Source: Oscillospiraceae bacterium
Lineage (GTDB): Bacteria; Bacillota; Clostridia; Oscillospirales; Oscillospiraceae
Reading direction: 5' to 3'
Assembly: GCA_910575265.1 (NCBI GenBank)
Contig: CAJTEA010000004.1
Span: 124,001-188,000, forward strand
DNA: 64,000 bases
The translations under genes and the position numbers were made by a program. Shown one piece after another: positions 1-26,072 of the stretch. The notes below the pieces were generated by a model. The model worked only from the letters and a program-made list of their open reading frames with translations, ran no database searches and was not told the origin of the DNA. Each line of letters opens with the position of its first letter. The stretch's first letter is position 1.

Positions 1-484
1 CCGCGCTGGAGCGCATAATATTGCTGTCCCAAACTCCTACGAAAATGCCGATATAAAAGGATACCAACATGCACAGCAGGGTACCCGCGGCGACGAACCG
101 GGTGAACCGGGGAGAGTAATAGTGGCAGGACAGCACGATCGGACAGGTCCAAGCCATAATCATCTGCAACGTCAGCACGAAGGACATGGCGGAGATGCCC
201 AGCAGGAAACAGCACACGATAAAATATTTCTCCCCCCGTCCCAGCTTGAGGTTCAGCCATTTTCTCGCCAGAGGCAGTAAAAACAGGAGGATTCCCGTGG
301 GCATTACGATATTCATTGAGGTCTTATCTACAATGAAAAAGCCCAAAATATTCAGGATCCACATAAGGGTGGCGACAATGGCCGCAAACTTGAGACAGGT
401 GGCGGCGTAGTGGTTGGCCCGCTCTTCGTTGTAGGAAAAAAGGTTCTCTTTCTCCAAGGCGGCGCCAAATTTCTCATGTTCCAT
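1..484 (-). CDS. Multi-spanning membrane protein, N-terminal part (C-terminus off window)
   Basis: The reverse strand reads open from an ATG at 484 to the window edge, giving about 161 residues beginning MEHEKFGAALEKEN. After a soluble stretch of about 25 residues there are roughly four to five hydrophobic segments (for example LKFAAIVATLMWILNILGFF and YFIVCCFLLGISAMSFVL). I do not recognise the family. Membrane-anchored signalling proteins of Clostridia (GGDEF or HD output) often have such a start, but the deciding domain lies outside the window. It begins only 32 bases after the VirB4 stop on the same strand with no terminator between, so it may be the last gene of the T4SS operon. The Shine-Dalgarno is weak (GGGAAAG). 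Confidence 0.6.
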   Translation of the reverse strand, partial: MEHEKFGAALEKENLFSYNEERANHYAATCLKFAAIVATLMWILNILGFFIVDKTSMNIVMPTGILLFLLPLARKWLNLKLGRGEKYFIVCCFLLGISAMSFVLTLQMIMAWTCPIVLSCHYYSPRFTRFVAAGTLLCMLVSFYIGIFVGVWDSNIMRSSA

Positions 485-516
485 TCTTACTTTCCCATGC
501 TTTCGTTTCAACGCCC

Positions 517-3500
517 TCAGTCTGTCATGGCCATCAGCTGCTCCAGCGTGACCTCGTAGACCAGGGGCAGCTCCTCAGGCTCCTCCGGCTCGGGTTCGGG
601 TTCCGGCTCCGGTTCCGGCTCTGGAGGCACATCGGGGAACCAGAGTCTCTCCTCTTCCGAGGGCTCAGCCTCCTCCTGGTTCTCCTGGCCCTGGAACAGG
701 CCGGCGAACAGATCGTCCACCGACACAGGCGCCTCCTCCGCGGGGGGCTCCCACAGCGGCTCAACCGGTGGGGGCGGGGCGAAGAGATCGGCAAATATGT
801 CGTCGTTATCCTCAACGCCCGCCGGATCGGACCAGTTCTCCTCCGCCCTGGCAACGGGCTCCTCCCGGTACGCGGTTCCCCGCTCGTTCTCCAGCTCCTG
901 GCGGACAGTGCGGCGGATCTCCTGTACCAGCGCCTCAAACCCGTAGCGCTGGAGGGCGGCGGGACTGAATGGGCCGTCCTCTCCGTCCCCGTTCTCTTCC
1001 TCCTCTGCCTGGAAAATCATATGCCTGGGCAGCTCCTGTGCTACCGGGGTATCCTCCCCCATGAGAAGGATTTCTTCCTCCCCTTCGTCCTCCACCTCCA
1101 CCAGGGAGATGCCGCTGGCGCGGAAATCGGGAAGGTCCTCCTCTTCCGGGGTAAAGCTCAGGCGGCTGGCCTGCTCCTCCTCCCAGGCCCAGCGGGCGGG
1201 ACGGCTGGGGCCGACCTCATCCTCCCAGACCTGCATGCCCTCCTCGCCGCCGAAAAAGTGGGTGGCGTAGAACGGATTGGTAAACAGGTCCTCCACCGGC
1301 TCAGGGGTCTCGATCTGGAGGGTGGCCCGACTGGCCGGCCCGGTCACCACAAAGGCCTGGCCCCGGGGCGCGGAGATAATCTGCTCCTGCTCGCTTTCAT
1401 TGATTCCCCCGGCCTTTTCATAGAGGGTGCAAAGGTCATGCATGTCGTTGGGAGCCAGGGAGAAGATCAGGCTGTACTGGCAGGCGTTGATGATGGCGGT
1501 GGACTTCCGGGCCAGCTCCTCGCTGCCCACAAAGTCCTTGATGTTCTGGGTAATGACAATCTGCATGCCGTTGTATTTCCGGATGCGCTTGGCCAACTGG
1601 AACATGAAGTCCAGGGCCAGAGGGTATTTGGCGTCGATAAATACATGGGCCTCGTCAATGACCACGATAATCTTTCGGCTGGCTTTGTATTTCAGGTTGT
1701 ACTCCCGGTTTTTGATGATCTCGTTGTCCAGGTATTTCAGCACCAGCAGCATCTGGGCGTTGGCCACCGTGTTGTTCCGGTTGGCCAGCAGGGACTGGAA
1801 ATTGAACACAATGAAGTTCTCTACGGTAGACAGGGTGGAGGGACCGTTCCAGATATTGGCGTTCCGCCCACCGGTGGAAAACTTGGCGATGTAGTTCATC
1901 AGCACCCGGAGGTTGGTCTTCAGGTAGTCGCTCTTGGTGCGCTGGAACTCCTCCAGCACGCAGTCGTACAGATCGTCGAAAATGGGGTAGTCCTCCGGCC
2001 GGAGGGTGTTCAGGTTGGTATACTGGTCGATCCCCTTCTGGCTGTATACCCGGTTAATCAGGTTGTTCAGATACTCCATCGCGTCCCCATCAATCTCAGG
2101 GAGGATCTGGCGGAAAAACTCCTCTAAAAACTGGAGGTGGGCGGCGTAGGAGCTGGTTTCCTGACCGTCCTCCGCCTCATCGTCCTCCAGAGAGGTGATG
2201 ATGTGGAACGGGTTGATCCGGCCGTGGGAGGCGTTGGCCACATTGATAAATTTGCCGTGAAGGTTGCCGGCCAGCTCGGTATACTCGTTTTCCGGGTCTA
2301 GGACAAAAATTTTGCTGTCGTCCGCGGCCAGGTTGGACAGGATGCTCTTGGTGGCGTAGGATTTGCCGCCGCCCGACTTGCCCACGATGACCATATTTGA
2401 GTTGACACGCTCACTGTCCCGGCGGAAGAAGTCGATGAAGGTGGGCACCCCGTCGCTGGAGCCCAGGCTCAGTCCCTTGCTGTCGCTGAGGCTGGCGTAA
2501 ATCCAGGGGAAAACGGCGGCCACCGTGCTGCTGGGTACCCCCCGGGCCGACTTGGCGAAGGGGTCGTAGCCGTTGACCTGGGTGGCCACAAAGCCCTCGA
2601 ACTGCTGGAAGGACAGGTCGTTCAGGCGGAAGCCCTTCTCGGTGAAGGAGCGTTTGATGTCTTTCTTCATCTCGCTGATCCGGGGCAGGACGGAGGGGGG
2701 CGGCTGAGGCACCAGCAGCTTGTTGTCCCGGGTGGCCATAATATCGTAGCCGGTGATATACATGTTCATGGCCATCAGGTTTTCGTTGTTGTTCTGGAGC
2801 ATGACCAACAGCTCGGACAGGGTCTCTATGTGGGTCTGGAGCTCCAGGACCCGGCTGGACACCTCGGTCTTATCCAGCTGGCTGTTCAGCTCGCTGATGG
2901 AACGGTCGATGGCCCGGATGGACTTCTCCCGGTCCATCTGGCTGAATTTCATCACCACCTTGGTGCCCGGCAGGTCAAACAGGCTGGCCCCCCAGGCGTC
3001 CTCCACCTCCAGGGGGTAGTTGGACACACGGAAGGTATGGGTGATCACGCTGTTCACCTCGGCGGTGCGGTGCTTCAGCTCCAGGGACTCGGGCATGGCA
3101 AACAGGGCGTAGTCGGCGGGGTCTGTGTCTTCAATCTCCCGCTCGTCAAAGTCCGCGCTGTTCACATAGCGCAGAAAAACGGCCAGCTCCTTGTCGTTCA
3201 GCCGATGGGGGACCATCTCCCCCTGGGTCAGGCTGGTGATGGCGGAGCGCATCTGGTTTTCCAGCTGGCGCTTATCGCTGTCGAACAGGACCAGATAGAA
3301 GTGGGGAATCAGCACCTTGTCCATCAGGTTCTGCTGGCGCAGCTGGTTGATCCGGTCGTAGATCACCTCAATCCGGGCCTTCAGCTCCTCCTCGGAGAAC
3401 ACGCCCCGCTCATAGCCCTTTTTCAGGGCGTCGATTTTATCGTACTCGCCGTCAATGTACTCGTCCAGCACCATGGGCCGCTCCAGCTTCACCAGGTTGG

Positions 3501-4410
3501 CGGCATATTTCGGCCCCACGGAGCGGATGACGCCGCCCAGCGCCCGGTCGATGGCGTTGGACTGGCGGTGCTCGCTGAAAAAGCGGAACTCCACTGGCGG
3601 GATCTCAATCACCGCTCCATAGTACTGGCCGCTGTAGCAGATAAAGCCGTCCAGAATTTCGGTCACCAGGTACATCCGCTGGATGTCCACCCGCTTCCGC
3701 CGCTGCTCGGCCACCTTGGCCTTGTAATAGCGCTCCTCCGCCTCCCGCTTGCGGCGCTCCCGAATGGGGGTTTTGTCCGCCTCGGGGATTTTTTTGTCCT
3801 TGAGGAACTTATCCTCCGCCTTTTTCGCCTTCTTTTTTCGCTTTCGTTCCTTTTTCTCCGCTTTTTTTGCCGCGCGCTTCTCTTTCCGCGTCAAGGGCGG
3901 CGGGGCCTCCTCTTCGGGCGGCTCCTGCTCCGCCTCCTCGGGGAGCGGCTCCTCCGGTTCTGGGTCCTCCAGAACCTTACCCTTGTTTTTCTTCTGCTGC
4001 TTTTGCTGTTTCTTTTTTTGCTTCTCCTGCTGTTTTTTCCGCTTGAGCGCCTGTTTGCGCTCCTTTTTCTTTTTCCTGCGGTAGGCCCGCCGCTGCTTCC
4101 GGTTCATCCCCATCATGGGGTCCTCCCGCTCGTCTACCGGGATATAGGGAATCTTTTGATACCGGCGTACGTAGGAAAAATGGCGCAGCATCCGAAACAG
4201 GAACATATAATTTGGCTCATCGTCAATACGAGCCAGTAAAAAGCCAAAGAGAAAGAGCAGTCCCAGGTCGATCCACAGCCGGTAGGGCAAGGAGGACAGA
4301 AAGACAAAGAAGATTACCAGAACTCCAAAGAACCCCACCAGGACATCCGCCAGGGATACGCCCCGGAAAAATTCCGTGGATACCTTTGTCTTCTTTGGAA
4401 TGATGCGCAT
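517..4410 (-). CDS. VirB4-type T4SS ATPase with PrgI/VirB3-like N-terminal membrane domain
   Basis: Cytoplasmic energising ATPase of a type IV secretion system, 1297 residues. Residues 1-75 hold two membrane segments after IPKKTKVSTEFFRGVSL, the layout of Gram-positive PrgI (VirB3-like) proteins. Residues about 95-230 are a very Lys/Glu-rich coiled segment. The VirB4 core follows, with Walker A GKSGGGKS near 676 and Walker B IIVVIDEAHVFID near 915. The last 200 residues are acidic and end with an (EP)n run. Usual VirB4 proteins are 600-850 residues, so both extensions are unusual. Start ATG 4410 has GAGGTG 8 bases upstream. It lies 21 bases after the VirB6-like gene, consistent with one transcript. 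The VirB4 assignment is firm; the PrgI fusion is inferred from position, length and the two-helix pattern. Confidence 0.92.
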   Translation of the reverse strand: MRIIPKKTKVSTEFFRGVSLADVLVGFFGVLVIFFVFLSSLPYRLWIDLGLLFLFGFLLARIDDEPNYMFLFRMLRHFSYVRRYQKIPYIPVDEREDPMMGMNRKQRRAYRRKKKKERKQALKRKKQQEKQKKKQQKQQKKNKGKVLEDPEPEEPLPEEAEQEPPEEEAPPPLTRKEKRAAKKAEKKERKRKKKAKKAEDKFLKDKKIPEADKTPIRERRKREAEERYYKAKVAEQRRKRVDIQRMYLVTEILDGFICYSGQYYGAVIEIPPVEFRFFSEHRQSNAIDRALGGVIRSVGPKYAANLVKLERPMVLDEYIDGEYDKIDALKKGYERGVFSEEELKARIEVIYDRINQLRQQNLMDKVLIPHFYLVLFDSDKRQLENQMRSAITSLTQGEMVPHRLNDKELAVFLRYVNSADFDEREIEDTDPADYALFAMPESLELKHRTAEVNSVITHTFRVSNYPLEVEDAWGASLFDLPGTKVVMKFSQMDREKSIRAIDRSISELNSQLDKTEVSSRVLELQTHIETLSELLVMLQNNNENLMAMNMYITGYDIMATRDNKLLVPQPPPSVLPRISEMKKDIKRSFTEKGFRLNDLSFQQFEGFVATQVNGYDPFAKSARGVPSSTVAAVFPWIYASLSDSKGLSLGSSDGVPTFIDFFRRDSERVNSNMVIVGKSGGGKSYATKSILSNLAADDSKIFVLDPENEYTELAGNLHGKFINVANASHGRINPFHIITSLEDDEAEDGQETSSYAAHLQFLEEFFRQILPEIDGDAMEYLNNLINRVYSQKGIDQYTNLNTLRPEDYPIFDDLYDCVLEEFQRTKSDYLKTNLRVLMNYIAKFSTGGRNANIWNGPSTLSTVENFIVFNFQSLLANRNNTVANAQMLLVLKYLDNEIIKNREYNLKYKASRKIIVVIDEAHVFIDAKYPLALDFMFQLAKRIRKYNGMQIVITQNIKDFVGSEELARKSTAIINACQYSLIFSLAPNDMHDLCTLYEKAGGINESEQEQIISAPRGQAFVVTGPASRATLQIETPEPVEDLFTNPFYATHFFGGEEGMQVWEDEVGPSRPARWAWEEEQASRLSFTPEEEDLPDFRASGISLVEVEDEGEEEILLMGEDTPVAQELPRHMIFQAEEEENGDGEDGPFSPAALQRYGFEALVQEIRRTVRQELENERGTAYREEPVARAEENWSDPAGVEDNDDIFADLFAPPPPVEPLWEPPAEEAPVSVDDLFAGLFQGQENQEEAEPSEEERLWFPDVPPEPEPEPEPEPEPEEPEELPLVYEVTLEQLMAMTD

Positions 4411-4431
4411 GGGCTCACCTCAATTCGTCAG

Positions 4432-6768
4432 TCATCGCTTGTTTCGCGGGGGCGGCGCGCTGCTCCCGGGCTTTCGTCCCGAGGGCGGGGGCGGAGGGGG
4501 CGTTCCGCCGCCCGTTGTCCGGGGCGTGCCGGTAAAGCCGCCGCCAGAGGAGGACGCTCCACCGGAAGCCGTTCCAGACCCGGCGCTCTGTGGTCGGAGC
4601 CTGGACGGGGGCGTTCCGCCGCCCGCTGTCCGGGGCGTTCCGGTAAAGCCGCCGCCGGAGGAGGACGCTCCACCGGCGGAAGACGTTCCACCGGAAGCCG
4701 TTTCAGACCCGGTGCTTTGCGCTCGTGCCCTGGGCGGGGGAGGGGCGACAGCCGCGCTCCCGCCGGAGGATTTACTGACGCCGGAGGGACCCGCCGCGGC
4801 AGACGCCCCCGCCTTCTCTGCCGCGGCTTTTCTGGCCGGAGACACATAACGAGGTTCTGTGGGGGCGGGACCGCCCAGCGTTCTGGGTGTACCGGTGAAT
4901 CCGCCGGAAGAGGATATTCCGGAGGCGGAACCCTCACTGTCGGAGGAGGACATTCCACTCATACTGTCGCTGCCAATACCGCCATACGTTTTTTTCGGCG
5001 TATAAGCCGCCTGGCCGTATTTTGCCTGCCGTTTGTCCAGCTTGTTTTCGGTCTTTGACGCCTTGTCCTGAGCCTTGATCGCATGGCCCATAGTCCGCCG
5101 GACGCTGCGCTGGCTCTTCCCCTTGTCCTGCTTCTTGTCCGCCTGGTCAAACAGCTTATCCGCCTTGTTCTGCTGCCGCAGAGCCTTCCGGGCCATATGT
5201 TGAGACTTTTTGTCGTGGTGTGCTTCCAGGCGGTTTTTCAGGCCCTTAATGCCTTTGGTAGCTGTGATCGGGCTCTTGATGATTCCACCCGCGATCCGGC
5301 CCGTGCCGCGGACGGCGGACATGGCTCCATGGGTCACCATGCCGCCAATGCGGCCCTCCTGCTGGATGGCGGCCATGCCCGGATTACCGGCCAGAATGCC
5401 AGTGATAACCGCGCTGGCCTGGAGTACCGCCCAGGCGCCGCCCAACACCATGAGCAGCTGGGCCATCCGGTTCAGAACGGCAAAGCCCGCCCCGTCGCCG
5501 GGGAAATAGACCAGATCACTGCTCAATGCCAGCGGGATGATAATCAGGTACAGCCGCATGGCGATCACGCTGCCGAAGCCGGAGAACAGCTGGATGACAA
5601 AGGCCTGTGTCCAGCTCTGCCATTTGCCCCCGTCGTCAATGGGCATGCTGGAAGCAAACAAAGGCGCCACCAGATAGAGCAGCATCAGATTGAACATACG
5701 CACGATAAAGGTAAAAATACAGATTGCCATTATAACGATGAACACGACGGAGGAGATGTAAGCCACCAGATAGTCCATCTCCCAGATGTCAAAGTCCCGG
5801 CGGACCTGCGTCAGGTTCATATAGTCCTTCTCCCCGGTGACGTAGCCCCGGCGCAGGGCGTCGTCATAGCTGCCGTTGTTGTACATCCCGTTCTGGGCAG
5901 CCTCCATACCGGCGATGAGGAAGATGAGCACATCGGTTTCGATCACGCTGTCGGTATCCATCCGGGCCGCCTGGACAGGCGCGAAGTCCTTGTAGGTGCT
6001 GATCTCCCTGCTCACCGTCTGAACGGCGTAGGTCACATCGGAGTAGTAGGTGTCCAGCTTCAGGTCCGCGGTCAGGTCCGACGAGGTGGCCAGCAGGGCC
6101 AGGGCCGACTGCCAGGTGTGGTGGCCGTTTTCGTCCATGCCGTAGTCGTAGTCAAAGAAGCCGTTGACATGGAGGGCCAGCAAATCGTTGCGGATGGCGT
6201 TGAAGCAGCTGTTGACGTTGTACCGGCTGTCGGCGGAGGGGTTTACCGAGTAGTTGGCCACCGTGGCCAGCACCCGGGCCATGGCGGCGTATTCCGCATC
6301 GGAAAAGCTCTTTTCCTCATCTTCCCGATTCAGGATGGCGGCATTCTCCAGGGCGAAGTTAATGCGGTCCAGCAGCACGTTGGTGATGTTGACCGCCGCC
6401 ACCGAGATGGCGTTCAGGAGCAGGATGATGACCAGACAGCGGATGAAGTTGGAAAAAATCTGCCCCACCGACTGCTTCACCGAATCTGTGACGTCGGCGG
6501 CCTTTCGGGCCATGCCCACAATGCAAAAGCCGAAGGCCATCACAATGGCGATGAGGGCCATGGCCCAGAAGGCGTTGGTCACCGCGTCGTGGCCGAAAAA
6601 GATGTTGATGAGAAAGTCGCCGCTGTCCTTGTACATCACCTTGGAGGTGCCGGCAAAAATGTCGAAAAAGGACTCCATAAAATCCACCAGCTTGAGCAGA
6701 CCCTGCAACAGCCTGCACAGCAGTACAAACACCCAATCAAACAGCAGCCTCGCGAGCCACTTTCCCAT
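4432..6768 (-). CDS. VirB6/TrbL-like T4SS polytopic membrane protein
   Basis: Inner-membrane channel component of a type IV secretion system, 778 residues. Hydrophobic helices occur near residues 60-135 (AFWAMALIAIVMAFGFCIVG; FIRCLVIILLLNAISVAAV). An extracellular loop of about 170 residues follows, then a second helix cluster at about 325-470 (YISSVVFIVIMAICIFTFIV; LLYLVAPLFASSMPIDDGG). The YLVAPLF...DDGGKWQSW stretch is typical of Firmicutes TrbL/VirB6 proteins. The C-terminal 250 residues are cytoplasmic, Lys/Gln-rich and then Gly/Ser/Pro low complexity, with three GGFTGTPRT repeats and a basic end. Start ATG 6768 has AGGAGG upstream. It sits between the Ig-like exported protein and VirB4. 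Confidence 0.88.
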   Translation of the reverse strand: MGKWLARLLFDWVFVLLCRLLQGLLKLVDFMESFFDIFAGTSKVMYKDSGDFLINIFFGHDAVTNAFWAMALIAIVMAFGFCIVGMARKAADVTDSVKQSVGQIFSNFIRCLVIILLLNAISVAAVNITNVLLDRINFALENAAILNREDEEKSFSDAEYAAMARVLATVANYSVNPSADSRYNVNSCFNAIRNDLLALHVNGFFDYDYGMDENGHHTWQSALALLATSSDLTADLKLDTYYSDVTYAVQTVSREISTYKDFAPVQAARMDTDSVIETDVLIFLIAGMEAAQNGMYNNGSYDDALRRGYVTGEKDYMNLTQVRRDFDIWEMDYLVAYISSVVFIVIMAICIFTFIVRMFNLMLLYLVAPLFASSMPIDDGGKWQSWTQAFVIQLFSGFGSVIAMRLYLIIIPLALSSDLVYFPGDGAGFAVLNRMAQLLMVLGGAWAVLQASAVITGILAGNPGMAAIQQEGRIGGMVTHGAMSAVRGTGRIAGGIIKSPITATKGIKGLKNRLEAHHDKKSQHMARKALRQQNKADKLFDQADKKQDKGKSQRSVRRTMGHAIKAQDKASKTENKLDKRQAKYGQAAYTPKKTYGGIGSDSMSGMSSSDSEGSASGISSSGGFTGTPRTLGGPAPTEPRYVSPARKAAAEKAGASAAAGPSGVSKSSGGSAAVAPPPPRARAQSTGSETASGGTSSAGGASSSGGGFTGTPRTAGGGTPPSRLRPQSAGSGTASGGASSSGGGFTGTPRTTGGGTPPPPPPSGRKPGSSAPPPRNKR
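4470..4910 (-). repeat. In-gene repeat encoding GGFTGTPRT-type units in the VirB6 tail
   Basis: Three related coding units (near 4500-4545, 4620-4665 and 4870-4905) specify GGFTGTPRT followed by Gly/Pro-rich linkers. The first two are nearly identical at DNA level, including the flanking Ser/Gly-rich codons. This looks like internal duplication within the disordered C-terminus of the VirB6-like protein. Confidence 0.7.
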
Positions 6769-6792
6769 CGTCGGCCCCTCCTTCTATGTATC

Positions 6793-7755: not shown

Positions 7756-7785
7756 GGGTCCTCCCTCCTCTTCCATGGTCTGAAG

Positions 7786-9795: not shown

Positions 9796-9845
9796 CTCGT
9801 TTCGCTCCTTCGCGCCGGGCATACCCGGCCATTTTTTGTGTTTTT

Positions 9846-17431: not shown

Positions 17432-17434
17432 ACG

Positions 17435-17468
17435 AACCTCTGCTGGACAGACCGGCGGAGGTTTTTTT
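17435..17468 (+). terminator. Rho-independent terminator
   Basis: AACCTCTGCTGG pairs with CCGGCGGAGGTT (with G-T pairs) and is followed by a run of seven T. It ends the LytTR / short-paralogue transcript. Confidence 0.85.
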
Positions 17469-17566
17469 CATTCCAAATTGACCGTTCCAGTGCAAAAACG
17501 TGGCTTTTCTTTCCCCAGATCCCAGAGTAAAATAACATTATCCAATTGAAACAGGAGGTACATACT

Positions 17567-20017
17567 ATGCCTACGATTTATGAAGAATATGCCCCCTACC
17601 GCCCAGAGCTGACCGCCGGTGAGCAGGAGATGATCGACACCTCGCCCGACCTGCGTCAGGTGGAGATGCGAATCGGCATGGACCGGGCCGAGGAACAGCT
17701 GCGGGATTGGCCCTATCCGGAGAGCCAGGATACCTTCGAAAAATTCCCCGGCATCGACCCCAGAGGCAAGGTGTGCGATGTGGACATGGGGTTTTTCGAG
17801 CGCTTCACCAGGCTTCAGGCTACCCTTCCCTCCCGTCCCCCGGAGGTGCGGGAATACATCGGCGGAGTGCTTGACCAGCTGAAAGACCGCAAATCCACAC
17901 TGTCTCAGAGCTGGACGGCCATGACGGACGACTGCATTACCATCCGCCTGATCAACCGCGGCGCAAAGCTGGCCCCTACGGCGGAGGCCAGCGAGGAAAT
18001 GCTTCGGGACGCCGCGAAGCGCTCCACCGAAATGGCCAGCATCCAGCGGATCGACGGCTTTTTGAACGCGATGGAGTACGCCGCCGGAATCAGCGACAAG
18101 GTCCCGGACGAGCGGGCCAGAAACTTCCTGGACAACAAGCTCAAAGCCCCCATCCCCGCAAAGGTGGAGGCGGTGCGCACCGTCTCCAACGTCACCCCCT
18201 CCACCCTGACCGTCAACTTCCAGAATTTTGACCACATTATGGCCCAGCAATTCTGCTCCAACCCCGAAAACTGGGGCAAATCCCCCAAGGACATGCCCCC
18301 TGATCCCGCCGAATCCATTAAATTGCTCCCCCTGATTTACCGGTACGCCCCCGCCACCGTGGACCGTGCCCTCCAACCCGTCTTTGAAAAGATAGAAGAT
18401 ATGCCCGGTAAGCAAATAACGGACTACCTGGACCGGGGCGGCCTGATTACCGTGGACGGCAAGACGGTCCGCAGCATGATGGAGGAGAGCTATAAAGGTG
18501 ATCCCGAGAATTTTACAGACTGGTACCGGGAAAACGTGCGGGAGATGACCAACCGGTTTGTGTCCTCCGGACTGATGTCGGGCAAGCGGGTGGAAGCCCT
18601 TATCCCTGATGCCAAGGGGAAGTTCCCCAAGGAGCCGGTCCAGATCACCAAAAGCGGCTATGAGCCATCCCCCCTGAAAAAGGTCACCCTCAACGCCTGG
18701 GAGCGCTACTTCGCCAAACATGGCCATTACAAGGCAAAGGCCGCCAAGGCCGCCGAGTACCAGCGGGTGATGGAGGGCCGGGAGCAGATGCGCAGCAACT
18801 GCCTGTCGGGCACTTTGGCCGCCCATGCTATTGGCCGGAATCAGACGGAAAACCTGTTTTTCAGTGAATATAAGCAGGAGTTGGGCGGCAGAACCGATGT
18901 AAAGCTGAACACCATGGTAGTGGACAAGGGCATTGAATGCTCGGCTCACTTCCGTCTTTCCCGCTCCGCCCCTGTCTCCACCTGCATCTGCTATCTGGCC
19001 GCTCAGGGGCATTCCATCCAGGACATCATGAACCCCGACAAGCTCCAGGTCGAACGGCAGGCAGCGGGCAAGCTGTATATGGAAAAGGCTATTGCCAAAG
19101 ACAACAACTGGCTGGGTGAAACCTACTTCCACGGGATAGAGGCGCTGACGAAACAGGTTCGTGAGATCTTCAGCCAATGCGATCTTACGAATAGAGAGAG
19201 TACACTCGCAGTCATGCCTGAAGCCGAACCCGCCCTCAGAACAATGTTCGATTCGTACCAGGAGAAGGACCGCGTTCTCGAAGCCTTTTACCTGGCCGCT
19301 GAGAAAGAACATCCCGGAAAGGGCGTTGAATACGCCGATCACGTGTGTGCCACGGCCACGGGGGCTAGCAACTTCGGCGATGTTGTTACGCATGAGCTGC
19401 ATGGCTATATGGCCCTGGCCAGTCCGAACAAGACTGATACCCTCCGTCCGTTATCCCAAATCGTAGAAGGCGCCGGCATGCGCGAAATTATGAAAAACAG
19501 CAGCGAGCCGGACCCCCTCCGCCGAATAGACCTTCTTACTCTTGGAACTATCACTCGCGCCGGGGGACTCAACTCCAGCATTCGTGATATGGCTAAGCGT
19601 CTGAATAAAGACCCCGCCGCCCGCCGCGCCGTCGCCCACCTGGCCTACTCCGGCCAGTTCCAGGACAAAGTTCATATCAGCATAGGGCAAATGCTCAAGC
19701 CAGACGGTACACCCATGACAGGGAACCGCTTCGAGACCGTTTACAGCTTGGTTAAGGGGGAGGACGGCCAGCTCCATCTAAAGAGCGAGAAGGTCAAGGT
19801 CACCCAAGACTTGATTGGAATGAAGATTACCCCCAGCAAGTCTCTCCAGGCCAGTATGGAGAAGCACCAGAAGGCCCAAGAGTTCCAGGCGAAGCACCCC
19901 CTGTCCGATCTCGAGTCGAAGGAGTCAAAGAAAGCCGACCCCAAGAAAGAGGCTCCTCAGAAACCCGCTCCCAAGAAGCAGGCCCCTGCCAAGGGCGGCG
20001 GCGGACGCACCAAATAA
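17567..20017 (+). CDS. Cytoplasmic protein of unknown family, long paralogue (816 aa)
   Basis: ATG 17567 has AGGAGG 8 bases upstream; an upstream in-frame start at 17546 adds seven residues before that ribosome site and is unlikely. Residues 1-400 are homologous to the preceding gene's product. Residues about 400-740 are an extra region with no motif I can name (it includes THELHGYMALA, which is not an HExxH site). The last 60 residues are Lys/Pro/Ala-rich and end KGGGGRTK, like the paralogue's GGRSK end. It has no signal peptide or membrane helix. Codon choice around 19140-19600 looks less GC-biased than its flanks, suggesting a mosaic origin. It has its own terminator. Function is unknown; candidate T4SS substrate. 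Confidence 0.72.
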   Translation: MPTIYEEYAPYRPELTAGEQEMIDTSPDLRQVEMRIGMDRAEEQLRDWPYPESQDTFEKFPGIDPRGKVCDVDMGFFERFTRLQATLPSRPPEVREYIGGVLDQLKDRKSTLSQSWTAMTDDCITIRLINRGAKLAPTAEASEEMLRDAAKRSTEMASIQRIDGFLNAMEYAAGISDKVPDERARNFLDNKLKAPIPAKVEAVRTVSNVTPSTLTVNFQNFDHIMAQQFCSNPENWGKSPKDMPPDPAESIKLLPLIYRYAPATVDRALQPVFEKIEDMPGKQITDYLDRGGLITVDGKTVRSMMEESYKGDPENFTDWYRENVREMTNRFVSSGLMSGKRVEALIPDAKGKFPKEPVQITKSGYEPSPLKKVTLNAWERYFAKHGHYKAKAAKAAEYQRVMEGREQMRSNCLSGTLAAHAIGRNQTENLFFSEYKQELGGRTDVKLNTMVVDKGIECSAHFRLSRSAPVSTCICYLAAQGHSIQDIMNPDKLQVERQAAGKLYMEKAIAKDNNWLGETYFHGIEALTKQVREIFSQCDLTNRESTLAVMPEAEPALRTMFDSYQEKDRVLEAFYLAAEKEHPGKGVEYADHVCATATGASNFGDVVTHELHGYMALASPNKTDTLRPLSQIVEGAGMREIMKNSSEPDPLRRIDLLTLGTITRAGGLNSSIRDMAKRLNKDPAARRAVAHLAYSGQFQDKVHISIGQMLKPDGTPMTGNRFETVYSLVKGEDGQLHLKSEKVKVTQDLIGMKITPSKSLQASMEKHQKAQEFQAKHPLSDLESKESKKADPKKEAPQKPAPKKQAPAKGGGGRTK

Positions 20018-20062: not shown

Positions 20063-22030
20063 CTACAGCAGGGGCAGCAGGATGGAGAATTCCGCCCCCC
20101 GGCCCGGCTTGGATTTCACCTCCGCCCGGCCCCCGTGTTCTCTGGCCACCGACTGGACGATGAACAGGCCCAGGCCCTCTCCCCCGTCCTCGGCCCGGGT
20201 GGTGAAGCCCCGCCGAAAGACCTGATCCAGCAGCTCCGGGGGCAGGCCGGGGCCGTTGTCCCGCACGGCGATTCGGGCGTACTCCCCCGCCGGCCGGAGG
20301 GACAGGGCAATCTCCCCGTCCTCCGGGGTAAAGCTGACGGCGTTGAACACCAGATTCTGCAAGGCGCGGCTCAGCTTATCCGGGTCCGCCCGGACGGCAC
20401 ATAGCTCCGGCGGCAGCTCCAGCAGAAAGTCCGGGCCGCTCACCTCCACGTCGGGCTGGAACCGGCGGTGGAATTCCTTCAAAAATTCCGCCAGGTCCAG
20501 CCGCTCCCACCGGGAGGCGATGGGGTTTTCCAGGTTGAACTGCTGCATCATGCGCAGCTGCCGGGCCAGCTCCTCGCTCTTGCCCTCAATCACGTCCAGC
20601 TGTCCCCGGGTCCGGTCGTCCAGCAGAACGTTGTTTTCCCGGACCAGCCGGGCGTAGGACAGCAGAGAGGCCAAAGGCGACTTTAAATCGTGGAGGAACT
20701 CGGACAGCAGCTTCTGCCGCTCCCCCACCAGCCCGGCAATCTGGCCGGTCTGACGCTCCACCTCCTCCTGTAAGTGCCGGTTGAGCCGGCGGTTTTCCTC
20801 CGCCATGGACAGCCCCTGGTCCACCATCAGCGCCGCGAAGCACAGTGCCAGCACAAAGCCGCCCCACTCGTCGGGCCAGGCCCCTCTGGCGGGCTCAAAC
20901 CGGTTGATGGTAACCACCGACAGGAACAGGCCGCCCGCGTAGACGCCCACCCCGGCGGCCAGCCAGACCGCTCTGGCGCGCATCCCGCTCCACAGGACGG
21001 CCCCGGTCAGGAGCAGGGCGGAAAACAGCTTCCATACCGACATCAGAACCCCGTAGACGCCGGTAAAAGCGGGGGCCCAGGGCAGCACCAGCGTGGGCAC
21101 CACCGCCGCCGCCAGCATAACGCCAAAGGCCAGCCGCCGCGCCCGCTCCGCCCAGGGACGGCGGTTCAGGCGGCCCAGCTCCAGCGCCAGCCCCAGGGCG
21201 CACCAGATCCCCGCCATGGACGCCGCGTCCTCCAGGGCATAGACCAGGGACACATGGCGCACACCAAAGAGCAGCCGTATGGGGTAGCCCACCCGCAGGG
21301 CGAAGGACAGCGTCAGCCCCGCCAGCCACAGGGCGGTCCGCTCCCGCCGGTTCCCGCCCGTCCACACGGCCAGGGAGAACAGGGCGATGGCCATGGTGCC
21401 AAAGCTCATCAGGGCGTAGAGGGCGGCCCGTCCCGCGGCCAGCGCCGCTATGGCCTGGGGGGAGCCCAGGGCCGGGGGATAGGTCATGCCGCTGTAATAG
21501 TGGGACCGGTTCTCCGCCTGAATCAGCAGCTCCGTCCGGCCGGACAAGGGAAAGGAGACGGTCAGGTCCCGCACCAGAGGGCGGTAGTCGGGGGAAAATT
21601 CCCCGGACTGTCCCACCAGGACTCCGTTCACATACACCTTGCAGGCGGAAAAAACCTCGGGCAGCCAGAGCGAGGCGGTGACCGTCTCCTCCGGACCCTC
21701 CAGGATCAGGCGGTAGCTGGCCTGGCCATAGGGGGAGGCGTCCCTGTGAAAGACTGACCAGCTCTGCACCTGCCCCGCGTAAACGGCATAGCCCAATCCC
21801 CTCTCTCCCGGCTCCAGAAGGACATCCGGGTACAGATGCCAGCCGTAAGGGGCCCAAATCAAACCGTTTTTCTCAAAAATTGTACGATCTGCCACCAAAG
21901 CTCCGTCTTGTGTAAGTGTCCCAGACATGGTATACTTATTGTCAAACCGGATCAAAAAAAGGAAGACCGCCACAGCCGCCAATCCGGCGGCCAGAAAAAC
22001 AGCCAGGCGCTTCCACACCGTACCAGCCAT
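20063..22030 (-). CDS. Sensor histidine kinase with 7TM-DISM type sensor
   Basis: About 655 residues from ATG 22030 (MAGTVWKR, with AGAGGTG upstream). One N-terminal helix leads to an extracellular beta-sandwich domain (about 40-205, with the ASLWLPEVFSACKVYVNG pattern of 7TMR-DISM sensors). About seven helices follow (210-400), then a short coiled coil and the kinase core. The H-box is FLHDLKSPLASLLSYARL with His near 447, the N-box NLVFNAVSFTP, G1 DNGPGLP and G2 GEGLGLFIV. The likely partner is the OmpR-family regulator at 24044, with one divergent gene between them. DISM sensors commonly detect carbohydrate or envelope cues; the ligand is unknown. Confidence 0.92.
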   Translation of the reverse strand: MAGTVWKRLAVFLAAGLAAVAVFLFLIRFDNKYTMSGTLTQDGALVADRTIFEKNGLIWAPYGWHLYPDVLLEPGERGLGYAVYAGQVQSWSVFHRDASPYGQASYRLILEGPEETVTASLWLPEVFSACKVYVNGVLVGQSGEFSPDYRPLVRDLTVSFPLSGRTELLIQAENRSHYYSGMTYPPALGSPQAIAALAAGRAALYALMSFGTMAIALFSLAVWTGGNRRERTALWLAGLTLSFALRVGYPIRLLFGVRHVSLVYALEDAASMAGIWCALGLALELGRLNRRPWAERARRLAFGVMLAAAVVPTLVLPWAPAFTGVYGVLMSVWKLFSALLLTGAVLWSGMRARAVWLAAGVGVYAGGLFLSVVTINRFEPARGAWPDEWGGFVLALCFAALMVDQGLSMAEENRRLNRHLQEEVERQTGQIAGLVGERQKLLSEFLHDLKSPLASLLSYARLVRENNVLLDDRTRGQLDVIEGKSEELARQLRMMQQFNLENPIASRWERLDLAEFLKEFHRRFQPDVEVSGPDFLLELPPELCAVRADPDKLSRALQNLVFNAVSFTPEDGEIALSLRPAGEYARIAVRDNGPGLPPELLDQVFRRGFTTRAEDGGEGLGLFIVQSVAREHGGRAEVKSKPGRGAEFSILLPLL

Positions 22031-22058
22031 ATCATCACCTCTGAAATGGAGCGTTATT

Positions 22059-24008
22059 ATGAAAAAAATCTTTGCGCTGGCGCTAGCCCTGCTGCTGCCC
22101 CTCTCCACGCTCACACCGGGGGCGCTGGCCGTGGAACACGCCGCTCCGCCCGTTCAGCCGGAGGAGAACCCCCTCCCCGACGTATGGACCGAGGTATCCA
22201 CCGCGGAGGAGCTGTTCGCCGCAGGGGGAAGCGCCCCCCTCGTCCGGCTGACCGAGGACCTGACAGTAACCGCGGCGGACGCCCAGTTTTTCCCCTTCTG
22301 GACCCCCACCACCTTGGATATGAACGGCCACTGTATCCGGGTCGCCCAGGGCGGCTGCTTTTCCTTCGGAGGCGGCGCGTACCCACTGATCCTCATAGGG
22401 GACGGAGGGGAAACCGGTCTGCTTCAGGTGGAGGCCGGAGGCGAGCTCCAGATTGAGAATATAGACGCCAGCCAGGTCGCCGGCCCGCTGGCCCGGCAGG
22501 CGGAGGGCGGCTGGCTGGTCACCCAGACGGTTACCGCCGCTCCGGAACAGATGATTTACGCCCAGGCCCCGGTATTGCGGGAGAACTCCGCCTCCTTTGC
22601 CGTCCTGCCCCAGGGCCTGGCCCAAGAGGAACTGCTGGAGCAACTGCCGGAGCTCTCGGTTTCCATCAATTTTCAGGGACAGTCTGAGCCGGTCACACTC
22701 CCCGCGGACCAGCTCTCCTGGGACCTGGAGACCCAGTGGCCCGGGATCGAGGCGGGGCACAGAACACTCCTTCACGCCCAGCCTGTTGGTCCGCTGTCCG
22801 GGGTGGACTGGCCGGAAAGCGAGCTGTCCCCTGTCCTCTTCGACGCGCTTACCTGTGAGCTGGCCATTCTGGTGGATGGTGCGGCCATCGGCAATATAGC
22901 GGTCCGAAATTATGTCTGCGGCAGCAGCTATGCCCTGAGTATTTTTCTTCCCGATCAGGTACAGCCCGACGGACACCCCCTATCATCGGAGCGGTCCCCC
23001 GCCTTTTTGGAGCTCTCTCTGGACAACGGAGCAACCTGGTTTTCCGCCAGCGTCGGAGAGGACATGGATACCGATCTGCTGTTCATTCGTCTATCCGCAC
23101 GCCAGGAGGACGCGCCCGGGGATTTCCAGGCCAGCCTGGATGTTCTTCAGGAAACCGGCCCGCTGTTGATTCGAGCCGGGGCGGACTACCGGGGAGATGG
23201 CTACCGCTATCGCCTCTATACGGACACACTGTCCCTGTCCTCCGCCGGCGTTCCCACCCAGTCAGACATCGGGGGCAGCCGGGGCGGCACATTAGACATT
23301 CTGCCCGCCCGGCCAGACCCCGAACCGCCCGCTCAACTGGAAGCGGAACCACCACTTCAGCTAAAGCCGGAACCGGAACCGCCCACCCAGCCAGAGCCGG
23401 AACCGGAACCGCCCACCCAGCCAGAGCCGGAACCGGAACTGCCCGCCCAGCCAGAGCCGGAACTGCCCGCCCGGCCAGAGCCGGAACCGGAACTGCCCAC
23501 CCAGCCAGAGCCGGAACCGGAACCACCCACCCAGCCAGAGCCGGAACCGGAACTGCCCACCCAGCCAGAGCCGGAACCGGAACTGCCCACCCAGCCAGAG
23601 CCGGAACCGGAACCGCCCACCCAGCCAGAGCCGGAACCGGTGCCGCTTGTCCAGCAGAACCCAGATCCGGTACTGTCCATCCAGCCGGCGCCGGAATCGA
23701 CCGCTCAGCCAGAGCCGCCTCAGGACAGCGTCCTGCCCGCTGTTGTCCAGCAGCCCCAGGCTCAGGTTCCGGAGCCGGAACCGTCTTCTACTCCAGCCAC
23801 TCCGGAACCGCTTTCCCCGGTTCAGCCGGCCAATGTCCAGCCGCCGGCCCAACCCAAGAATCAGCCCGTTGATACAGAACCCGAAGGGCTTTCTCCCGCG
23901 GTCCAGATAGCAGCCGGAGCCGCTGTCACCTGCGTGCTGGTGGCCGCCGCCGCCGCGAAACCCGCCGCTCCGCTGAACTGGCTGCGCAGACTGCTTCACA
24001 GACCATGA
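22059..24008 (+). CDS. Surface protein with signal peptide, Pro-Glu stalk and C-terminal membrane anchor
   Basis: 649 residues from ATG 22059 (MKKIFALALALLLPLSTLTP, cleavage near GALAV); GGAG lies 7 bases upstream. The N-terminal region (about 30-170) has short beta repeats that could form a right-handed helix. A middle domain follows. Residues about 420-540 are a run of roughly ten-residue QPEPEPEPPT/QPEPEPELPT units, a probable wall-spanning stalk. A C-terminal helix (VQIAAGAAVTCVLVAAAAA) and a basic tail anchor it in the membrane. It starts 28 bases from the divergent kinase, so the two promoters overlap the opposite coding regions. It may be a ligand-presenting or sensing partner of the kinase. 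No known family recognised. Confidence 0.82.
   Translation: MKKIFALALALLLPLSTLTPGALAVEHAAPPVQPEENPLPDVWTEVSTAEELFAAGGSAPLVRLTEDLTVTAADAQFFPFWTPTTLDMNGHCIRVAQGGCFSFGGGAYPLILIGDGGETGLLQVEAGGELQIENIDASQVAGPLARQAEGGWLVTQTVTAAPEQMIYAQAPVLRENSASFAVLPQGLAQEELLEQLPELSVSINFQGQSEPVTLPADQLSWDLETQWPGIEAGHRTLLHAQPVGPLSGVDWPESELSPVLFDALTCELAILVDGAAIGNIAVRNYVCGSSYALSIFLPDQVQPDGHPLSSERSPAFLELSLDNGATWFSASVGEDMDTDLLFIRLSARQEDAPGDFQASLDVLQETGPLLIRAGADYRGDGYRYRLYTDTLSLSSAGVPTQSDIGGSRGGTLDILPARPDPEPPAQLEAEPPLQLKPEPEPPTQPEPEPEPPTQPEPEPELPAQPEPELPARPEPEPELPTQPEPEPEPPTQPEPEPELPTQPEPEPELPTQPEPEPEPPTQPEPEPVPLVQQNPDPVLSIQPAPESTAQPEPPQDSVLPAVVQQPQAQVPEPEPSSTPATPEPLSPVQPANVQPPAQPKNQPVDTEPEGLSPAVQIAAGAAVTCVLVAAAAAKPAAPLNWLRRLLHRP
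23371..23645 (+). repeat. Tandem 30-bp coding repeats (Pro-Glu stalk)
   Basis: About nine units with period 30 (one deletion variant) built from CCAGCCAGAGCCGGAACCGG blocks, encoding QPEPEPE(P/L)P(T/A). Near-identical copies suggest recent expansion or contraction by slippage, so stalk length may vary between strains. Confidence 0.9.
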
Positions 24009-24043: not shown

Positions 24044-24745
24044 CTATTCCGGAGGAATAAAGGCATAGCCCTTACGGCGCACGGTGCTGATATAATTCGT
24101 CCCGCCGCACAGGTCGGTCAGCCGCTGACGCATGGAGGCCACCCGGGCCTGAAGGTTGTGGCGGCTCCGGCCCATAGGCTCCTTCCAGATGCCGTCGTAG
24201 ATCTGCTCATAGGAGAACACACGCCCGGGACTCTGGGCCAGAAAGGCCAGGATGTCAAACTCAATCCGGGCAAAATCCCCCTCCCGGTCCCCGTAGCGCA
24301 CCAAACGCCGCCCGGTGTCAATCACCAGGGGACCGAAGGTGTGGACGGCAGCGGGGCGCTGGACGCCCCGGCTCTGGATACGGGCGCGCACCCGCAGTTC
24401 CAGCTCCCGCATGGAGAAGGGCTTGCACACATAGTCGTCCCCTCCCAGGGAGAGGCCCCGGATCCGTTTCTCCTCCTCGGTATAACTGGACAGAAATACA
24501 ATGGGAATCGCGCTGTCCGCCCGCAGCTGGGCGCACAGATCAAAACCGTCCTGGTCTGGCAGGCCCACGTCCAGCACCACACAGTCCAGCTGTACCCGGT
24601 GGATCAGCTCCAGGGCCATGGCGCCGGTGCTGGCCCGCAGCACCTGAAAGCCGGCGGCGGTGAAGTGGTCCTCCACGTTGTCCAGCAGCTCTCGGTCATC
24701 ATCCACTACCAGGATGCGAAGCTCCTGCTTTCCATAAAAGCGCAC
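24044..24745 (-). CDS. OmpR/PhoB-family response regulator
   Basis: About 233 residues. The receiver (about 7-120) has the acidic pair VVDDD, the phospho-acceptor Asp in VVLDVGLPDQDG, and the Lys in YVCKPFS. The winged-helix output domain (about 130-230) ends with VRRKGYAFIPPE, as in Trans_Reg_C regulators. I chose GTG 24745 because GGGAGG lies 7 bases upstream; the TTG at 24760 would place the ribosome site inside the gene. It probably pairs with the 7TM kinase at 20063. OmpR-type regulators bind head-to-tail direct repeats, so the 23-bp repeats at 9931 are a candidate target. Confidence 0.93.
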   Translation of the reverse strand: MRFYGKQELRILVVDDDRELLDNVEDHFTAAGFQVLRASTGAMALELIHRVQLDCVVLDVGLPDQDGFDLCAQLRADSAIPIVFLSSYTEEEKRIRGLSLGGDDYVCKPFSMRELELRVRARIQSRGVQRPAAVHTFGPLVIDTGRRLVRYGDREGDFARIEFDILAFLAQSPGRVFSYEQIYDGIWKEPMGRSRHNLQARVASMRQRLTDLCGGTNYISTVRRKGYAFIPPE

Positions 24746-24811
24746 AATTTTCCCTCCCAAAAGTCCTCTAACGTTCCTTTTTGACGGACCCTGCTTCTTT
24801 TCGAGAACAAA

Positions 24812-24900: not shown

Positions 24901-25251
24901 ATGAGAAAACGATTCGCTCCTCTGACCGTCACAGAGGTTGACCCTGTTCTGGACTTTATCGACAGGGCGCTGACCCGGCTGGGTCTTTCCACTGCTTCCC
25001 GTCTGCCCCTGCTGGCAGCCGCGGAGGAGCTGCTTCTGGCCGCCCTGGTCATGGCGCCCGGGCAGGAGGCCCAGGTTCTCTGTTCCCTGGCGCGGCCCGG
25101 CGAGCTTCAGCTCTCATTCCGGACAAGGGCAGGCCCGTTTGTTTTAAATGACGCGGACCTGGCGCTGCCGGAAGGGCTCTCTCCGCGCCAAGAGGGCGCC
25201 GCTTACATTATTCCGCTGAACGGCGGAAAACCGTCACGGCTGAATGTTTAA
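24901..25251 (+). CDS. Small degenerate HATPase/RsbW-like protein
   Basis: 116 residues from ATG 24901 (MRKRFAPLTV), downstream of GAGG and of the TATAAT at 24817. The order resembles an anti-sigma-factor kinase. Residues about 40-56 (PLLAAAEELLLAALVM) look like the N-box helix of RsbW/SpoIIAB, but the Asn is missing and no G1 or G2 ATP-lid motif follows. It may therefore bind its partner without kinase activity. It faces a STAS gene on the other strand and the two overlap by 18 bases at their 3' ends, which supports a shared partner-switching role. The family call is an inference. Confidence 0.5.
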   Translation: MRKRFAPLTVTEVDPVLDFIDRALTRLGLSTASRLPLLAAAEELLLAALVMAPGQEAQVLCSLARPGELQLSFRTRAGPFVLNDADLALPEGLSPRQEGAAYIIPLNGGKPSRLNV

Positions 25252-25539
25252 AATGCCGCTGAAGCCGGTCATCTCAAAAACTTCCATAATCGCGGGGCTC
25301 ACGTGGGTGAGAACCAGACTTCCCCCTGTTTTATTCACCTGCTTCTGAAGCACCAGCAGCGCCCGCAGACCCGCGCTGCTCACATAGGCCAGCTCGGTAA
25401 AATTCAGCTCGATCTGGGCATATTCCCCTGCCACCTTTAAAAAGGCCTCCTGTGCCGCTGGGGCGGATGAGGTATCCAGCCGACCCTCCAGCCGCAGCTC
25501 CACGCCCCTGGGTGGACGCTTGACCAGTTTGATATTCAT
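25234..25539 (-). CDS. STAS-domain anti-sigma factor antagonist
   Basis: 101 residues, a single STAS domain. The signature is LEGRLDTSSAP followed by IELNFTELAYVSSAGLRALL, with Ser54/Ser55 at the site phosphorylated in SpoIIAA/RsbV. In such switches the unphosphorylated STAS protein binds an HATPase-type partner, and a PP2C phosphatase resets it. Both kinds of partner are nearby: a degenerate HATPase (24901), a SpoIIE phosphatase (26238) and a MATE-HATPase fusion (29327). Start ATG 25539 has GGGAG 9 bases upstream. Confidence 0.92.
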   Translation of the reverse strand: MNIKLVKRPPRGVELRLEGRLDTSSAPAAQEAFLKVAGEYAQIELNFTELAYVSSAGLRALLVLQKQVNKTGGSLVLTHVSPAIMEVFEMTGFSGILNIQP

Positions 25540-25596
25540 AATGCCACACTCCCTATTTCCTGGATTTTCTGTACAAATAAATCGGATTGTTTGGGT

Positions 25597-25625
25597 ATTG
25601 TAACACAGTTTTTTCCCGCTTACAA
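25597..25625 (-). promoter_or_regulatory. Promoter of the STAS gene
   Basis: On the minus strand TTGTAA (25620-25625), 17-base spacer, TACAAT (25597-25602), about 58 bases upstream of the STAS start. The same hexamers occur in the promoter of the MATE-HATPase operon (31141-31170). Confidence 0.7.
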
Positions 25626-25676
25626 TCGTTTTTCAGCCGCTATGCAAAAATGACCAATTTTCTTCAAATAAAGAAA

Positions 25677-25705
25677 TTGCGAAAGTCTCTGTCCGCCGTT
25701 ATCAT
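25677..25705 (+). promoter_or_regulatory. Promoter of the pilin-like gene
   Basis: TTGCGA (25677-25682), 17-base spacer, TATCAT (25700-25705), about 75 bases upstream of the start at 25782. It is divergent from the STAS promoter. Confidence 0.6.
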
Positions 25706-25781
25706 AAACATATGCGCGAGGCGGCGGAACGTCAGGCCCTGCCCGCCGGATCAAAACGCTTAGTTTTAGGAGGTACATATT

Positions 25782-26072
25782 ATGTTTACAACAGTCGTCG
25801 CTCCAATCGTCAGTCTGCTCAACAGTCTGATGGCCCCTCTGCTGGCCATCGTAGGCGCGCTGGGCGCACTTTACTGTGTGGTGCTGGGCGTGAAATACGC
25901 CAAGGCGGAGGAGCCCCAGGAGCGCGAGAAGGCAAAAGGCGCGCTGAAGAATGCGGTGATCGGCTTTATCCTGATTTTCGTGCTCATTCTGGCCCTGAAT
26001 CTGCTGCTGCCCATTATGATCAACTGGGTCAACGAGCAGGCCAACGGCACTATTATCACCGGCATGGAATAA
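25782..26072 (+). CDS. Small two-helix membrane protein, VirB2/TrbC pilin-like
   Basis: 96 residues. Two hydrophobic segments (about 12-40, SLLNSLMAPLLAIVGALGAL; about 60-82, VIGFILIFVLILALNLLLPI) flank a short charged cytoplasmic loop KYAKAEEPQEREKAKGALK. This is the layout of VirB2/TrbC-type pilins and of small T4SS membrane proteins in Firmicutes. It lacks a long cleavable signal. Start ATG 25782 has a perfect AGGAGG at 8 bases, suggesting high expression. It is monocistronic, 16 kb from the other T4SS genes but inside the same accessory region. The pilin call is inferred from topology. Confidence 0.6.
   Translation: MFTTVVAPIVSLLNSLMAPLLAIVGALGALYCVVLGVKYAKAEEPQEREKAKGALKNAVIGFILIFVLILALNLLLPIMINWVNEQANGTIITGME

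Follow-up and report, generated by a model that had tools for sequence, protein, structure and literature searches.

A type IV secretion module without a recognised relaxase in an Oscillospiraceae bacterium: a candidate protein-export apparatus

What does a type IV secretion system (T4SS) do in a Gram-positive chromosome when no relaxase is recognised beside it? In its treatment of Gram-positive systems, a 2025 review (PMC12857230) describes almost all known T4SS functions as DNA translocation and dedicated effector translocators as a long-standing question. A stretch of 64,000 nucleotides from an Oscillospiraceae genome, hereafter the window, raises this question, and an initial annotation had proposed that it holds a dedicated T4SS without a relaxase.

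The core lies at 517-9822, where genes for VirB4, a VirB6-like protein, an Ig-type membrane protein and VirD4 share the minus strand as open reading frames within the window. The VirB4-type ATPase (517..4410; 1297 aa with an acidic C-terminal extension) matched PF19044 (72.8 bits). Its best NCBIfam model was NF045975 (Mbov_0397 type) at 537.3 bits, short of the cut-off of 590 set for this mycoplasma ICE ATPase family. Scoring 7997 candidates yielded 4101 VirB4 homologues. Two hydrophobic segments are predicted at the N-terminus, at the place where a fused VirB3 would sit. Among 79 members, 59 have two such predicted segments and 68 have the first of them inside residues 1-40; Pfam and NCBIfam scans of the block gave neither a separate VirB3 gene nor a VirB3/PrgI profile match. 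The VirB6-like polytopic membrane protein (4432..6768; 778 aa, with a long low-complexity tail) passed both the MMCAP2_0566 model NF045848 (148.7 bits, cut-off 90) and the Mbov_0396-type model NF045889 (79.7 bits, cut-off 70). The VirD4-type coupling ATPase (7786..9822; 678 aa) passed the CD1115-family model NF045973 (287.5 bits, cut-off 250) and matched PF02534 at 181.1 bits. By these profile scores, and for the Ig-like protein by its modelled fold, the genes named in the initial annotation are present well above chance.

The Ig-like protein (6793..7776, minus strand; 327 aa) matched no Pfam or NCBIfam family, and its probable fold was assigned from a predicted structure (pLDDT 89) with Ig/FN3-like beta domains. 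The model resembles the Ig-type domains of adhesins, among many other Ig/FN3-type folds. A hydrophobic segment, taken as a membrane anchor, lies close to the C-terminus in all 63 family members. No VirB8-type family and no VirB1-type family or cell-wall hydrolase domain was matched among the scanned block proteins (Pfam, with nine proteins also scanned by NCBIfam). Divergent to the operon, as had been described, is a gene for a giant secreted protein of 1778 aa (10037..15373, plus strand) with a signal-like N-terminus, a Pro/Glu-rich C-terminus and a PLAT domain at residues 887-988 (PF01477). This domain was found in 18 of 23 scanned members of the family, the window protein included. Neither the giant nor the Ig protein matched any conjugation family in Pfam or NCBIfam.

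The pilin-like protein noted earlier proved to be a VirB2-like T4SS pilin (25782..26072, plus strand; 96 aa), scoring 54.8 bits with NF045849 (cut-off 40) when read from a start at 25782, and 43.1 bits with PF18895 (cut-off 26.6). In a related genome (G002) the pilin gene is located within the T4SS cluster. Judged by sequence, the block thus has the VirB4, VirD4, VirB6-like and VirB2-like pilin features of the type IV secretion superfamily.

The dense regulation first described was also borne out by Pfam. A LytTR-domain regulator (15458..16225, plus strand; PF04397, 48.5 bits) has a counterpart at the matching position in both G001, a close relative, and G002. Three regulatory genes follow on the minus strand: a histidine kinase, initially labelled as DISM, in which Pfam recognised kinase domains only (20063..22114; PF02518, 93.3 bits), an OmpR-type response regulator (24044..24760; PF00072, 88.3 bits; PF00486, 56.9 bits) and a STAS-domain protein (25234..25539; PF01740, 60.3 bits). 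The kinase gene is absent in G002 between the STAS gene and E816, a gene described below. A Pro-rich repeat protein with no family match was called at 22059..24008 (plus strand); by eye it has a signal-like N-terminus and a C-terminal hydrophobic segment. A SpoIIE-type phosphatase with a HAMP domain lies at 26238..27887 (minus strand; PF07228, 149.7 bits; PF00672, 33.2 bits). Extending the sequence leftward made the system larger than first seen. A second SpoIIE-like phosphatase gene runs over the window's left end (-967..484, minus strand, start codon at 484; window part 1..484), followed by an RsbW-like gene (-1386..-970); both assignments rest on likeness to the other SpoIIE protein in the window and on inspection by eye, and not on Pfam. 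A SpoIIE-RsbW pair is found at the corresponding end of two related loci (L021 and L022). To the left of the RsbW-like gene come a transposase remnant and then ordinary genes.

The same extension gave no relaxase. A profile built from five of the host genome's relaxases, with a sixth recovered as a control, had no match in C4:65001-207274, a span of the host contig (C4) that covers 59 kb left of the window (C4:65001-124000), the window and its right side. The host's PF03432 matches lie on six other contigs and none on C4. Among 80 related loci, searched with up to 10 kb on each side, the profile found no MOBP-type relaxase. For relaxases outside MOBP, the genes of the block were scanned with Pfam and NCBIfam, and 169 of 190 neighbours with Pfam to the extent of the matches listed; the relaxase that an ICE carries in or adjoining the element was not found in the block by Pfam or NCBIfam. 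An integrase profile had no match in the window or its flanks and hit one fragment in the 80 loci, and no intact recombinase family, tyrosine integrase or transposase able to excise an element, was recognised in the block. Among the matches listed, PF00589 occurs on the VirD4 contig in at least 3 of 19 genomes, at least 34 kb away.

The gene set is kept in relatives, whose VirB4 proteins are 46-97% identical in the best segment. In 37 relatives with full flanks, counted with profiles built from members of these same loci, VirB6 and the Ig protein were present in 37/37, VirD4 and the giant in 36/37, the pilin and STAS in 27/37 and a further family, c9, in 26/37. Pairwise distances of VirB4 correlated with those of the giant (r 0.937) and VirD4 (0.815), against 0.466 for RpoB, with conflict between families in the last case; rpoB lies on the same contig as the block. 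VirB4, VirB6, VirD4, the Ig-domain membrane protein and the giant PLAT protein are inherited together as one module on the chromosome; a VirB2-like pilin and STAS accompany them in most cases, and RsbW and SpoIIE often do. Its distribution is sporadic, however: VirD4 was found in 2 of 150 sampled genomes of the family, and at class level 5 of 391 genomes had one at 60% identity or more, the host included each time. In G001 the block has other neighbours at a different site. The description of the apparatus as fixed is thus not supported, given this pattern and the VirB4-RpoB conflict, whereas that of a dedicated T4SS without a relaxase is. Of the opposite picture, a sporadic integrative element at varied sites, the sporadic occurrence and the varied sites were found but an integrative element, with a recognised relaxase or intact tyrosine integrase, was not.

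The block is best read as a T4SS that has spread horizontally and carries no recognised transfer genes. Since the core lacks a recognised relaxase or integrase, is chromosomal and keeps its gene set in relatives, it is best interpreted as a dedicated apparatus for something other than conjugation. We place about even confidence in a more specific form of it: a T4SS related to the Mbov_0395/0396/0397-like (Gram-positive) branch, without DNA processing of its own, that, as we infer, serves cell-surface contact and protein export. The SpoIIE sensors, LytTR and here also the kinase/regulator pair would switch the system on. VirB4 and VirB6 would form the channel, with the Ig protein in VirB8's place, and the pilin may assemble into a short fibre. 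Both the giant and the Ig protein could span the wall and reach a partner cell or surface, while VirD4 would select substrates by a basic unstructured tail. The module would spread between species by means that it does not itself encode.

In this lineage the candidate substrates, proposed from sequence features, are E816 and E391. E816 (17567..20017, plus strand; 104 family proteins found) is predicted to be mostly helical (pLDDT 89) with a disordered basic C-terminal tail, and its model had no PDB match at E<=0.001. E391 (16256..17431, plus strand) is by sequence comparison a shorter paralogue without most of the second half, ending in GGRSK; it also occurs in G001, with a different tail that lacks the basic end. 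A net charge of at least +3 in the last 20 residues was found in 90 of 104 E816 family members, which are kin rather than independent, against 38 of 240 ORFs, which include a few E816 genes. The most conserved region of E816 is internal (331-391) and not the tail. E816 adjoins the T4SS in all five divergent-type carriers examined (G000, G001, G002, G013 and G054), but relatives lie near VirB4 in only 2 of 80 loci, and in the L022 and L024 genomes just outside the compared stretch, so it cannot be a universal substrate. Neither the giant nor E816 was found among 72,556 plasmids, and no E816 among 50,697 phages.

The alternative that survives best, though we think it rather unlikely, is that the machine conjugates in trans, moving DNA with relaxases from elsewhere in the genome, with one that has escaped recognition, or by a route tied to a transposase like that of mycoplasma ICEs. 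VirD4 falls in a conjugation family, and 14 of the best 15 VirB4 plasmid matches are from Spiroplasma, Mycoplasma and other Mycoplasmatota (26-31% identity), several being named ICE proteins. PF03432 relaxases occur elsewhere in the host and in 13 of 20 relatives: in G014, uniquely, on the VirD4 contig 45 kb away, and in 12 on other contigs. A Mutator-family transposase remnant (PF00872) lies past RsbW in L021, with a related remnant adjoining the window, and sporadic occurrence with transfer between families also fits a mobile element. On the other hand, 7/20 carrier genomes (assembly completeness not given) have no PF03432 relaxase, the single integrase match in 80 loci is a fragment, and the giant and Ig proteins, which fall outside conjugation families, are about as frequent as VirD4. 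The likeness to Mycoplasma and Spiroplasma ICE transfer modules is closest in the pilin and VirB4, which match Mbov_0395/0396/0397-type models best, while VirB6 matches the related MMCAP2_0566 model best and Mbov_0396 as well. The locus differs from them in a VirB4 below the model cut-off, in showing no intact transposase or element ends and in its extra Ig protein, giant PLAT protein and partner-switching genes. For the ICE of M. agalactiae, the relevant account names a Mutator-like DDE transposase and proposes a relaxase step (PMC6030558).

It is unlikely that the machine only assembles a surface structure, building a pilus and serving adhesion by displaying the giant and Ig proteins, with no injection. 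The VirB2-like pilin, the PLAT domain of most giants, the adhesin-like match of the Ig model and the frequent c9 family are all consistent with this. However, signal-like hydrophobic N-termini on 42 of 67 giants and 43 of 63 Ig proteins mean that most would not need the T4SS for export, and the retention of VirD4 in 36 of 37 loci implies substrates.

A decaying or captured ICE without present function is very improbable and already disfavoured: occurrence is sporadic, one end carries the transposase remnant and VirD4 matches in G003 and G225 contain a stop codon (G003 is also read as 675 aa), but the window's core genes are all open, relatives keep the set, VirB4 and VirD4 are 54-80% and 62-88% conserved across loci beyond L021 and block GC (0.57-0.63) is like that of the surroundings (0.58-0.64). 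DNA-importing T4SSs exist in archaea (Ced), but a DNA uptake or release device is equally remote here: VirB4 matches the CedD model weakly (28.2 bits, NCBIfam), and Pfam and NCBIfam scans of block proteins gave neither nuclease nor competence families.

Among known protein exporters, the Gram-negative effector systems Cag, Dot/Icm and X-T4SS depend on a VirD4-type component. The present module shares such a component but shows none of their diderm core-complex proteins, and no relation between substrates is known. Compared by description, the MPF-FATA T4SSs of Patescibacteria (PMC12102498) are similar in being monoderm, chromosomal and mostly without a relaxase; they have VirB2-like pilins, and VirB8 proteins are seldom recognisable among them. 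As described there, VirB4 occurs in 2,417 of 3,035 assemblies and belongs mostly to one clade, and a VirD4 homologue seldom lies close to virB4; here, by contrast, the host belongs to Bacillota, VirD4 lies inside the cluster and distribution is sporadic. The T4SS of the Streptococcus suis 89K island, as the 2025 review presents it, is likewise Gram-positive, with protein export reported there and inferred here, but has VirB1, VirB3 and VirB8 genes, lies on a pathogenicity island and exports a protease (PMC12857230).

In some gut and rumen bacteria, this compact machine, related to DNA-transfer systems but without a recognised relaxase and equipped with large surface proteins of its own, may deliver proteins or contact cells, a role hardly known in this bacterial branch. 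More tentatively, and with low probability, the module may represent a new class of contact-dependent protein delivery system in Gram-positive bacteria, patchily distributed among Clostridia of gut and rumen. It would combine a VirB2 pilus, an Ig protein replacing VirB8 and a giant PLAT adhesin, would deliver the largely helical E816/E391 proteins, themselves a new family, by a basic C-terminal signal, and would be controlled by partner switching. As a candidate dedicated effector translocator the module has a stable parts list, with regulators and candidate substrates named. It also occurs in genome records not labelled MAG, those of Ruminococcus flavefaciens YRD2003, Eubacterium ruminantium FB3002 and Lachnospiraceae bacteria C10 and LC2019, and together these features make the question of Gram-positive effector T4SSs testable by gene removal.

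Sequence comparisons indicate that the T4SS genes form a real, coherent and conserved module. VirD4 (7786-9822; Pfam and NCBIfam scans), an Ig-type membrane protein (6793-7776), a VirB6-like protein (4432-6768) and VirB4 (517-4410) are encoded on the minus strand, as are a SpoIIE-like and then an RsbW-like gene left of VirB4, extending beyond position 1. Divergent to the VirD4-VirB4 set are the giant exported PLAT-domain protein (10037-15373), LytTR (15458-16225) and the paralogues E391 and E816 (16256-20017). The genes rightward of E816 encode a kinase, a Pro-rich protein whose N-terminus is signal-like, a response regulator, STAS, a pilin (25782-26072) and a second SpoIIE. The relative G002 has a single block ordered VirB4-VirB6-Ig-VirD4, giant-LytTR-E816-E816, short ORF, STAS-pilin-SpoIIE-RsbW. 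Because the pilin is contiguous with T4SS genes there, gene order indicates that the window pilin is part of the system despite its apparent detachment. At 29327-31045, inspection by eye suggests a MatE-like transporter whose C-terminal part resembles RsbW; a distant relative (26%) comes after VirB4 in the G001 genome.

The module was compared with 80 loci of other species, of which 37 had long flanks on both sides. VirB6 and Ig occurred in all 37 and VirD4 and the giant in 36, with c7 (28), pilin (27), STAS (27), c9 (26), c8 (23), SpoIIE (14) and RsbW (14) less frequent; over all 80 the counts were giant 68, VirB6 66, Ig 65 and VirD4 62, all of which describe composition and are not an independent search, as the profiles were built from the same loci's members. 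The commonest arrangement had all genes on one strand: pilin, c9, VirD4, Ig, VirB6, VirB4, STAS, giant, c7, c8. VirD4 followed the giant in some loci (e.g. L026, L030, L040), and the giant was divergent in six loci, the window and G054. VirB4 distances correlated with those of the giant (r 0.937, n 18) and VirD4 (r 0.815, n 18), and more weakly with RpoB (r 0.466, n 19). All 63 Ig members had a hydrophobic segment close to the C-terminus, the modelled Ig protein comprised Ig-like beta domains and a helix (pLDDT 89), and 18 of 23 giants scanned had a PLAT domain.

The initial annotation proposed a fixed system without relaxase, and the absence of a recognised relaxase was borne out. Scans of the block proteins within the window (Pfam; nine also with NCBIfam) gave no match to families of relaxases, integrases, replication proteins or cell-wall hydrolases. 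PF03432 matched six sites in the host genome, none on contig C4. A profile of five host relaxases, which detected a sixth as control, had no match in the window, its flanks or the 80 loci, which reached at most 10 kb to either side of VirB4 and less in many cases. An integrase profile over the same sample matched one fragment, in L024 of G002. The fragment belongs to a tyrosine integrase, is 100 aa long and lies some 10 kb from VirB4 on G002:C18, where CRISPR-associated-looking genes were seen by eye at 0.4-13.6 kb.

The module is real and conserved, with its own surface proteins and no recognised relaxase, and its likeliest job would be export or contact. The main rival is mobilisation of DNA in trans. 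On this point, 13 of 20 carrier genomes have a PF03432 relaxase and seven have none; it is on another contig than VirD4 in 12, and G014 alone has one on the VirD4 contig, 45 kb off. Among the PF00589 matches listed over 19 genomes, the VirD4 contig was shared in G001, G010 and G014, at a distance of at least 34 kb.

The proposal that the system is fixed did not hold. The host genome is 3.6 Mb (96% complete), and its 207-kb contig C4, of which the window covers bases 124001-188000, carries rpoB and is therefore chromosomal. VirD4 (E<=1e-60) was found in two of 150 family genomes, host counted, and was absent from two other same-genus genomes listed; in the class it occurred in 14 of 391 genomes, five (host counted) at 60% identity or more. 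The genes that lie right of the block are flanked by different genes in G001 and G148, and the G001 block is at another place than the host's. The VirB4 tree matched RpoB groups for close relatives (G000, the host, with G001 and G002; G004 with G005; G008 with G014 and G019). It also placed G008/G014/G019, which are Ruminococcus and an Oscillospiraceae MAG, within the Lachnospiraceae carriers, and the Lachnospiraceae MAG G013 beside the host group, both with support 1.0. These groupings across families indicate that the module moves between lineages; no transfer means of its own was found in the relaxase and integrase searches of the block and related loci. Transposase remnants lie past the RsbW end of the host block (window -2105..-1602; C4:121895-122398) and of a 97% relative (L021:15963-16346; Mutator family by Pfam). 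A possible separate island is window 52000-64000, where GC falls to 0.529 (the rest of the window has 0.57-0.64) and a short gene at 63577 looks by eye like a type I methyltransferase.

The window pilin, VirB6 and VirB4 show similarity to the Mbov_0395-0397 set of mycoplasma ICEs (NCBIfam), and 14 of the 15 VirB4 plasmid matches listed were Spiroplasma, Mycoplasma or other Mycoplasmatota (26-31% identity). VirB4 scored under the cut-off of the Mbov_0397-type model and is therefore a relative of that family, not a member. The nearest functional parallels are the T4SS of Patescibacteria (PMC12102498) and the S. suis 89K system (PMC12857230). A VirD4 36-49% identical to the window's is encoded in nine Clostridia genomes (G471, G292, G174, G454, G339, G542, G439, G268, G212; L144-L153), which measure 0.8-1.5 Mb and are 98-100% complete. 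G471 has, in a row, VirD4, an Ig-type protein of 1488 aa, pilin, VirB6 and VirB4. T4SS parts in such reduced genomes recall Patescibacteria.

Several T4SS substrates are signalled by basic, unstructured C-terminal tails. By analogy, the basic tail of E816 may be an export signal and E816 a candidate substrate, as a lead only. E816 matched no Pfam or NCBIfam family and none of the plasmids or phages searched; its search returned 104 proteins, of which 93 ended in Lys or Arg (41 of 240 ORFs) and 90 had a net charge of at least +3 in the last 20 residues (38 of 240). The E816 model was confident and mostly helical, strand-rich near 702-756, had its one stretch below pLDDT 50 at residues 798-816, and matched no PDB structure at E<=0.001. 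In E391 the second half is mostly missing and the C-terminus reads GGRSK, an end not shared by its G001 relative. Linkage was judged in five of eight divergent-type carriers, those with both flanks available (G000, G001, G002, G013, G054): all five had E816-type genes beside the T4SS, with up to three matches each. Some contigs seem, from their equal lengths, to carry two diverged copies, and L062 has a weaker relative. Within the DNA examined around VirB4, E816 was absent from 78 of 80 loci (in L022 and L024 it lay just outside). Either the substrates differ in other carriers, or E816 has a different role. Genes of about 400-700 aa stand at the operon end after c8 in nine loci (L027, L032, L033, L036, L064, L075, L082, L087, L090); none matches E816, and they are possibly lineage-specific substrates.
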